In this document: piece by piece, positions 61,320 to 64,000 of the stretch
Position numbering within the stretch: position 1 is the stretch's first letter
Layout: each line of letters opens with the position of its first letter
NCBI GenBank assembly: GCA_030019205.1
Contig: JASEFH010000001.1
Location: 124,001 to 188,000 of the forward strand
Reading direction: 5' to 3'
DNA length: 64,000 bases
Origin: Methanomicrobiales archaeon
GTDB taxonomy: Archaea; Halobacteriota; Methanomicrobia; Methanomicrobiales; JACTUA01
Notes under the pieces: generated by a model
The model's input: the letters and a program-made list of their open reading frames with translations, nothing else
The model's database searches: none
Told to the model about the DNA's origin: nothing
Translations under genes and position numbers: made by a program

Positions 61320-62471
61320 TCATGTCCGCCGGATACCCTGCCGCTGGTTCCGGCAGGCGTTGAGCACATCTTCCATGCAGACCATCGCGCCCTCGATGCC
61401 GATCAGAGGGCGGGCGTGCAGGAGGTAACGGTTGCGGATGGGGGGTATCAGACCGCAGAACGCTGCGGTCGGATAGAGGGAGTGCTCGTAGCTGGATCCA
61501 AGGATCAGATCCGGGGCATGATCGGTGAGTATCTCTTCCATCCTTCGAAGGCTCGTTACTTTCTCGCACGGGTGGGCGGACGGCACCGGATCGTTCCGCA
61601 CGGCGATACAGGCGATCTGCGCGTCCAGGAACTCCTCGAGCATGCCCGCGGCAAAGGAAGCGTAGGAGGCGTTGCCACAGACCACGGCGACAGGGGGATC
61701 GAAACGCCGGAGATGCTTGTCGCAGGCATGCTGGATGCGTTCCTTCGCCCTCAACGCCTCGAGGGAGATCGCGTCCAGGTCCATGTCCTCAAACCGGGAG
61801 GCCAGTTCGGCAAACGCCTCCTCCACCGCTTCCAGACCGAGCAGAGACCCTGCGCGGTCTCCGACGCCGCTCTGGAGATCCTCGTTCGTTGTCAGGGTCA
61901 CGGGAGCGCAGTGGGCCAGGGAGTCCAGCCGATCCCTGGCGATGCATGTCGCCGGTGGGACGCCGGCGAGATTGAGCAGGCGCAGGGCTTCCAGCGCATT
62001 TCCCCGGTAGAAGGGGTCCGCCGGGTTCAACCCGTCAATGTTCACCCCTTCCCGCTCCCCGTCGTTCACGGGCGAGAGTGCGCCGAGCGCTCTTCGATAG
62101 CCGCTCTCGAGATCGCCGGAGAAACCCGGACTGTCGATGATCAGAAGGCCGGGACGATCCAGCATGCCCCGAAGGTCTTCGCCAATCACGGCTGGCACGC
62201 AGGTGTTCACAATGGCAACGCGCGCGTAGCGCGCACGGAGCTCATCCACGACTTCCTGCAGGCGATCACGGGAGCCGAAGATGATCTCGCTCTCCAGGAT
62301 GCAGGTGCCGTAGATCGGAGGTTCGAGCAGCGATGCCGTATAGAAGTAGCATCCGCTGGATCCGTGGACGATCACGCCGAGATCCGCAAATCCCGAGAGG
62401 CACGCCGCCGCACCGCTCATGCCGCAGGGCCAGAGAGGATTCTCGCAGGGACGCGGGGGGCGATCAGGCAT
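61320..62471 (-). CDS. Nitrogenase-like component 1 subunit (D-like)
   Basis: A 383-residue oxidoreductase/nitrogenase component-1 family subunit, shorter than NifD (about 480-490). Candidate P-cluster ligands C16, C41 (GSSGC) and C91 (NTCVPAVIGED) keep the spacing of the family. Near the C-terminus the segment HARPLIGIEGAMVCMED aligns with the NifD region that carries the FeMo-cofactor His, but Ile stands at that place, so FeMo-cofactor binding as in NifD is unlikely. The start overlaps the upstream K-like gene by 8 bases. Substrate unknown; it is not a standard nitrogenase. Confidence 0.85.
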   Translation of the reverse strand: MPDRPPRPCENPLWPCGMSGAAACLSGFADLGVIVHGSSGCYFYTASLLEPPIYGTCILESEIIFGSRDRLQEVVDELRARYARVAIVNTCVPAVIGEDLRGMLDRPGLLIIDSPGFSGDLESGYRRALGALSPVNDGEREGVNIDGLNPADPFYRGNALEALRLLNLAGVPPATCIARDRLDSLAHCAPVTLTTNEDLQSGVGDRAGSLLGLEAVEEAFAELASRFEDMDLDAISLEALRAKERIQHACDKHLRRFDPPVAVVCGNASYASFAAGMLEEFLDAQIACIAVRNDPVPSAHPCEKVTSLRRMEEILTDHAPDLILGSSYEHSLYPTAAFCGLIPPIRNRYLLHARPLIGIEGAMVCMEDVLNACRNQRQGIRRT

Positions 62472-63525
62472 GCAGGGCGCGCCTCCAGCGGTGGAGCATG
62501 CGGCGCACCCCGGCGGTTCCCACGGGGGCGCTCACCGGAAGGGGAACCGGTGTACCTTCATCGTCCAGATGCATCCCGAGGCGGGGGACGATCTCCTGCG
62601 CGAGGGAGAGGCTTGCCGGCTCGATATCGATGGGAGAGCCCTTCTGCTGCAGGGAGATCCGTTCTCCTGCGAGGTCGGCGTACTCTTGGAGCATCTCCTC
62701 CTGGTGTGCCCGCTCCTGTTCCTGCGGGAGAGTGCTGTCGATCCCGAGGATGTCGGCGGTGCTCGCGATAAACTCCAGAGTTCCCTGCAGTCCCACGGGA
62801 AATGCAGGCAGGAACGGCGTTCCGAACCTGCTGGCAAGGGCTGATCCCAGCATTGCGATCCCCGGATCGCGCAGGATATTCAATGCACCGTTCCCGAGCT
62901 GCGCGACCATGCGAGTGGAGATGTTCCGCACATAGCGTACCCGAACCTCCAGTCCGAGGGCGGAGAGAAGCCTCGCCACCTCCCGGTAGTTCTCCTCGAC
63001 CTCGTACTCCAGGTTCTTCTCCCCGATCAGGTTCACTGTCTTCTCCGTATCCGTGGACGCTTCCGTTCCCGAGAGCGCCAGGAGAGACAGGAGGGACTGC
63101 AGGAAACCATGGTGGAATGCACCTCCAAAAAAACCGGATGTGGGGATGTGGATCACGGGGACGCCCCAGTCCGCCGCACAGACACCGCCGACGTCATCGC
63201 CGATCGTATCGGCGATGCAGGTGCTCACCACAAAGATCGAGCGGGGATCCATGGCGAGCGCAGTGCGGATAGTATCTTCGAGCGCCTCCTCGCCGCCGAA
63301 GATGATGCTGCCTTCGTCGAGGTTGGTGGAGAGTATCCGCGGGAGGAAGGGATATTCGTTCTCCTGAAGGGTTGCATGCAGAAGGGAGAAGTTGTGGTGG
63401 GCACATCCGGCGGGACCGTGGACGATGGTCACTCCATCGATCACCTGCGTGGTGACCGAGAGGGCACCGCTGAGGGTGCAGCCGTCGTACCTATGCGTAC
63501 TCAAGGGCAAGGGTCTCAAGTTCAT
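62464..63525 (-). CDS. Nitrogenase-like component 1 subunit (K-like)
   Basis: A 353-residue component-1 subunit from the ATG at 63525; the frame upstream to 63621 lies inside the NifH-like gene. The opening [28 protein letters not shown] and [12 protein letters not shown] give candidate P-cluster ligands C16, C41 and C103. [16 protein letters not shown] is the family's partner-contact region. It resembles NifK/NifE-type chains more than the CfbD chain of F430 synthesis as I remember it. It overlaps the NifH-like gene by 35 bases and the D-like gene by 8, so the three are one operon. Confidence 0.85.
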
Positions 63526-64000
63526 CCATCTCGAGCGGGGTCGGAATATCCAGTCTCTTGTTCTCCAGGAGCAACCGCGCCAGCTCGCGGTACGTGCCGG
63601 CCTGCGCGGATTCCGGCGCATACTCGACCACAGGCTGCTTGTGCAGTTCGGCGAGCTGGACGATGCGATCCCTCGGGATATGGGCGATCAGGCGGGAGCC
63701 GATGCGGCGGGCGAACGCGTCCACCAGTTCCTCTTCCCGGTGCAGGGGGGCGGCATTGCAGATCACTCCGCCGAGCTGGCAGCAGCTGCGCCCGCGCCCG
63801 GAGAGGCGCGCAATGGCTTTGGCGATGTTGTTCGCCGCGTAGAGGGACATGAGCGTTCCGGAGGTGACGAGGTAGACCTCCCGCGCGTAGCCCTCCCGCA
63901 TGGGCATCGCGAATCCCCCGCAGACCACGTCGCCGAGGACATCGTAGACGATGACGTCCCCATTGAGCGCACCGAGCCTCTCGAGCAGCTGGAACGTGGC
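63491..64000 (-). CDS. NifH-like nitrogenase reductase ATPase (5' end outside window)
   Basis: The visible 169 C-terminal residues match nitrogenase iron protein: [19 protein letters not shown] with the second cluster Cys (equivalent to NifH Cys132). [57 protein letters not shown] and [12 protein letters not shown] at the end also match. The P-loop and first cluster Cys lie beyond the window edge. As an ATP-driven dimer with one shared [4Fe-4S] cluster it would pass electrons to the two following subunits. Which NifH group it belongs to needs the full sequence. Confidence 0.92.

Follow-up and report, generated by a model that had tools for sequence, protein, structure and literature searches.

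Almost throughout the order Methanomicrobiales, a three-gene nitrogenase-like operon encodes an Fe protein (H) that, judged from its sequence and genomic setting, very probably doubles as CfbC and serves CfbD in F430 synthesis. The operon was found at the end of the window, as the whole analyzed stretch of 64,000 nucleotides is called here. Its two other products are component-1 chains, alpha and beta, which are probably a reductase dependent on H.

The three overlapping genes lie on the minus strand in the order H, alpha, beta, with overlaps of 35 nt between H and alpha and 8 nt between alpha and beta (Table 1). Together with matches to the Pfam families Fer4_NifH (PF00142; E 7e-106 for H) and Oxidored_nitro (PF00148; E 3e-52 for alpha and 1e-28 for beta), this arrangement bears out the description in an earlier note on this DNA of a NifH-like ATPase and two short component-1 genes with overlapping frames. 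The H gene extends 303 bases past the end of the window, and the rest was read from the host assembly (contig C1 of the window genome, G000). This upstream sequence, which the earlier note had called for, completed H to 270 aa and brought into view a flavodiiron-like gene on the opposite strand. A leuB-like gene is located downstream of the operon, and a putative TATA-like sequence, CTTATATAATC, recognized from sequence alone, is found upstream of H. Close homologues of all three genes differ mostly at third codon positions, which indicates that H, alpha and beta are genuine coding genes under constraint.

Table 1. Genes of the operon and ligand-related residues, with positions in the window.
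Feature	Position	Strand	Remarks
H, NifH-type Fe protein	63491-64303; 63491..64000 (residues 102-270) within window	(-)	270 aa, ATG to TAG
alpha chain, NifE/NifD-like	62464-63525	(-)	353 aa; start lies within 3' part of H; labeled K in the earlier note
beta chain, NifK-like	61320-62471	(-)	383 aa; start lies within 3' part of alpha; labeled D in the earlier note
alpha Cys16	63478..63480	(-)	P-cluster-type ligand, NifE Cys37 / NifD Cys62 position; invariant 57/57
alpha Cys41	63403..63405	(-)	P-cluster-type ligand, NifD Cys88 position; invariant 57/57
alpha Cys103	63217..63219	(-)	P-cluster-type ligand, NifD Cys154 position; invariant 57/57
alpha Arg219	62869..62871	(-)	site of NifD/NifE/Mar-type active-site cluster Cys (NifD Cys275); invariant 57/57
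beta Cys16	62424..62426	(-)	P-cluster-type ligand, NifK Cys70 position; invariant 56/56
beta Cys41	62349..62351	(-)	P-cluster-type ligand, NifK Cys95 position; invariant 56/56
beta Cys91	62199..62201	(-)	P-cluster-type ligand, NifK Cys153 position; invariant 56/56

Family models match alpha best to NifE/NifD, and NifE is both its best PDB profile match and its best fold match (AF2 model, pLDDT 89.9). PDB profiles match beta to NifK/AnfK at three cysteines, and its best fold matches are VnfK/AnfK (AF2 model, pLDDT 93.1); it also shares with NifK, AnfK and VnfK the NPxxxC start and a C-terminal GxxGA motif. Thus, the K and D labels given earlier were swapped, and the order, described as H-K-D, is the usual H-D-K by family models, PDB profiles, fold matches and tree position.

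Each chain carries three P-cluster-type cysteines, as had been claimed, and these are invariant in all 57 alpha and all 56 beta homologues, a conservation far beyond chance. One additional cysteine per chain is also invariant (alpha Cys116, 63178-63180; beta Cys9, 62445-62447). In H, the P-loop and the two cluster cysteines (C95 and C128) are invariant among homologues. The cofactor of A. vinelandii nitrogenase is ligated by alpha-Cys275 and alpha-His442. In the alignment, the column of the active-site cysteine is a gap in alpha, beside the invariant Arg219, and the region bearing the cofactor histidine is deleted. Domain III of alpha is mostly lost, the predicted C-terminal domain being a stub in the AF2 model. 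The report of an isoleucine in place of the FeMo-co histidine had been based on the NifK-like chain, which never carries this histidine, but the point holds for alpha, which lacks both cofactor ligands.

The tree comprised 82 chains and compared alpha and beta with Nif, Bch, Mar-like, CfbD and H-D fusion chains. Alpha and beta each formed a clade of their own (support 100/100 and 100/99, respectively) outside the Nif, Bch, Mar-like and CfbD clades, and fell on either side of a modestly supported split (92/94) between D/E and K/N chains. Neither chain was placed in the BchN/B/Y/Z clade, although the long branches of the Bch rows make this placement rough. Topology tests rejected neither alpha and beta as a single clade (p 0.13) nor alpha with NifD/E (p 0.26), and the deep branching order of the two chains appears uncertain. 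Family models for NifD/K/E/N gave scores of at most 105 bits against cut-offs of 327-654. A CfbD identity of either chain was rejected, as the CfbD model (TIGR03282) gave 46-49 bits against a cut-off of 268 and the clades are separate; the CfbD of this genome is another gene, on contig C22 (498 vs 268 bits). The tree that the earlier note had proposed therefore agrees with its view that the chains lie outside NifDK/NifEN and that neither is CfbD.

In the tree, alpha has as its neighbor, with modest support (95/67), the D portion of an H-D fusion from a few members of Methanomicrobiales, which is also its best profile match (hhalign). The fusion and its partner have just 3+1 cysteines, i.e., four of the six of P-cluster type, and their operon contains or adjoins genes for CobN, CbiK, CbiZ, AAA/VWA chelatase-like and FecCD-type uptake proteins. 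Such a NifH-NifD fusion with a K chain was seen in chelatase/corrinoid loci (L200:7003-9303, L201:6549-8762 and L243; genomes G046, G031 and G393), and the system seems to be a tetrapyrrole-linked reductase that has received little study. At the profile level, beta is matched most closely by K-like chains from a genome of another family of the phylum, in which several repeated NifHDK-like sets are found on one contig (G190:C41; L191 and L208). The window genome contains a second H-D-K set (L008, contig C42, 1430-5055), with P-cluster cysteines and the active-site cysteine in D; when compared with solved structures, its K has MarK as best match and its D has NifD.

A beta profile was searched over 394 genomes of the phylum, 83 of them Methanomicrobiales and about 310 others. 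Beta was found in 81 of the 83 (E<1e-119), and the others yielded no family-level match, the best being 3e-33. All 80 named matches belong to Methanomicrobiales or to unclassified Euryarchaeota bins, and include Methanoculleus, Methanoregula, Methanofollis, Methanolinea, Methanospirillaceae and other Methanomicrobiales bins. H, alpha and beta occur together in 57 loci from six families (beta is off the contig in one). The order H-alpha-beta is kept in families f1, f2, f3, f5 and f6; in f4 (Methanoculleus), beta is displaced by a few kb and inverted, still nearby. One bin, which may represent two strains, carries the whole operon twice (G339; L244 and L245). The recurring neighbors belong to flavodiiron-like, desulfoferrodoxin-like, kinase and K+ transporter families. 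In the surveyed loci, these families name no tetrapyrrole step, and neither a NifB/radical-SAM B gene nor sulfur genes recur beside the operon. A nearby ABC transporter was considered as a clue to the substrate and rejected, its "family" consisting of several unrelated ABC proteins.

CfbC is required for F430 synthesis (PMC11423573). Of the 61 genomes searched, 38 encode no NifH homologue other than H; the window genome has a second one on contig C42. All genomes with a completeness of at least 90% contain one separate CfbD that exceeds the cut-off of its family. This CfbD is located in a cfbA-E-D-B cluster (roles read from protein sequences) without cfbC or any NifH, whereas in other methanogens of the phylum a CfbC-type gene adjoins CfbD. 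Since F430 synthesis needs CfbC, the cluster lacks its gene and no other NifH is present, most Methanomicrobiales are left with H as their only candidate for CfbC. H of the window genome passes the NCBIfam CfbC model (404.1 bits, cut-off 402), on which several H proteins of the order reach 412-423 bits. H and the CfbC proteins of other methanogens were neither united nor separated (AU p 0.25), which is compatible both with H having displaced an older CfbC and with CfbC having been relocated.

Two genomes, G049 and G393, have H in the absence of alpha and beta, the next conserved gene following about 170-180 bp after H, and G049 has no NifH homologue besides H. The idea that H is the private partner of alpha and beta alone was therefore rejected. 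Faster decay of H after the loss was also considered; the branches look longer, yet H keeps 109-111 of its 112 invariant residues in these genomes, and thus there is no clear relaxation. G049 and G393 group together in the H trees (99/92 and 98/91), so the absence of alpha and beta may reflect one loss. Collectively, the status of H as sole NifH homologue, the cfb cluster without cfbC and the retention of H after the loss of alpha and beta argue that H also serves CfbD. The operon had been regarded earlier as separate from F430 synthesis. This appears to be only half right, given that H is the one candidate CfbC in most genomes of the order.

A single-chain component-1 homologue with three P-cluster-type cysteines and the active-site cluster cysteine was also seen (L009:8483-9670 on G000:C8, L192:10950-12203, L193, L194, L195, L197 and L198). 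In three genomes, a chain of this type is encoded a short distance past the cfbA-E-D-B cluster and ilvE, and no partner chain was seen. The chain on C8 was rejected as the CfbD of the window genome (68 vs 268 bits).

We lean toward a reading of the operon as a two-component, ATP-driven reductase with a P-cluster-type relay and no FeMo-type site, whose Fe protein is common to CfbD. The gene order, the ligand sets, the distribution, the status of H as sole NifH homologue in most genomes and the clean loss of alpha and beta with H retained are observed. What we infer in this model is that the chains form a complex, which type of cluster they hold, that H delivers electrons to both clients and to which class the substrate belongs. 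H would act as the Fe protein for two clients, CfbD in F430 synthesis and the alpha-beta complex, the latter probably assembled as an alpha2-beta2 tetramer. By analogy with the family, ATP hydrolysis would drive electrons from the [4Fe-4S] cluster of H to a six-cysteine cluster at the alpha-beta interface, which would pass them directly to the substrate in a cavity without a FeMo- or L-type cluster. Such a route would resemble that of protochlorophyllide reductase and CfbD rather than that of nitrogenase. The substrate would most likely be organic, possibly of tetrapyrrole type. DPOR and CfbCD, which have no large active-site clusters, have tetrapyrrole sites (PMC12552129). A tetrapyrrole-type substrate is tentatively favored mainly because the nearest relative of alpha, the H-D fusion, sits among chelatase/corrinoid genes. 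The tetrapyrrole-related option raised in the earlier note thus gains indirect support from the fusion, although the operon's own neighbors name no such step. More speculative, as a whole, is a Methanomicrobiales-specific reductase with a P-cluster ligand set, no active-site metal cluster and an Fe protein in common with CfbD that carries out an extra tetrapyrrole reduction, possibly related to F430.

Alpha and beta might also have no substrate of their own and act as a relay or helper to H and CfbD in the reduction of Ni-sirohydrochlorin a,c-diamide. This is unlikely: alpha and beta share their operon with the sole candidate CfbC and are present order-wide, but all near-complete genomes searched have an intact CfbD that scores above the cut-off of its family, G049 retains H and CfbD without alpha and beta, and G393 retains H without them. 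A NifEN-style scaffold or maturase for an [8Fe-9S-C]-type cluster, e.g., for MCR activation, would be in keeping with NifE as the closest named PDB match of alpha and with the use of L-type clusters in MCR activation (PMC12176620). However, alpha lacks the L-cluster cysteine of NifE and most of domain III, and alpha and beta are confined to one order whereas NifB and the proteins that activate MCR have a far wider distribution (PMC12176620), which makes such a role improbable.

Equally improbable is that the system scavenges sulfur by reducing C-S bonds in the manner of Mar/Isr; a Mar-like function had been put forward as one option for this operon and is now disfavored. Alpha lacks the cysteine that ligates [Fe8S9C] in MarD, is not grouped with Mar-like D chains in the tree and has no recurring radical-SAM B or sulfur genes beside it, even though the two-chain H-D-K arrangement with six P-cluster cysteines is as in MarHDK (PMC12552129) and beta resembles the K chains of Mar-type systems at the profile level. 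It is hardly credible that the operon encodes a nitrogenase, true or alternative: the superfamily and operon layout are shared, but there are no cofactor ligands, scores are far under every NifD/K/E/N cut-off and both chains lie outside the Nif clades.

To our knowledge, the nitrogenase-like enzymes without FeMo cofactor so far all make tetrapyrroles (chlorophylls or F430), whereas a large active-site cluster has so far gone together with the breaking of C-S bonds. As an H-dependent reductase with the full P-cluster ligand set and no active-site cluster, alpha and beta would fit neither group, and their lineage would help to explain how the superfamily came by its electron relay and its active site. 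The operon is near-universal in a major methanogen order and tied to what is probably its only electron route into F430 synthesis, and thus suggests that a reduction step is missing from the known picture there. Because two genomes have lost alpha and beta naturally, comparison is possible without genetics.

No description of the Methanomicrobiales-wide operon, of its function or of its link to CfbC was found in the literature searched. Nitrogenase-like pairs with three cysteines per chain and without both cofactor ligands were noted in 2012 (PMC3464626), so the ligand pattern has precedent, and alpha and beta may belong to this 3+3-cysteine class. The same paper mentions a nifH-nifE fusion without data (PMC3464626).

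Compared to CfbCD, the system has in common an Fe protein that passes the CfbC model and has no other NifH homologue beside it in most of the order's genomes, and no active-site metal cluster is expected in either; however, CfbD is one chain with two cysteines at these positions, in a separate gene and clade, whereas alpha and beta are two chains with six. The H-D fusion, best profile match and tree neighbor of alpha, shares its IGEKxL motif, occurs in the same archaeal order and differs in the fusion of H to D, the 3+1 cysteines and the chelatase/corrinoid loci. Mar/Isr/Nfa enzymes of group IV likewise have two chains and six P-cluster cysteines, but they retain the active-site cysteine, usually have a radical-SAM B partner and form different clades. 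DPOR and COR (BchLNB and BchXYZ) also combine an Fe protein with two short chains without a FeMo-type cofactor, though their [4Fe-4S] cluster is held by fewer cysteines and their clades are different. With NifEN and NifDK, alpha and beta share the fold and the positions of the P-cluster cysteines, and they differ in the loss of the cofactor cysteine and histidine and of domain III of alpha.
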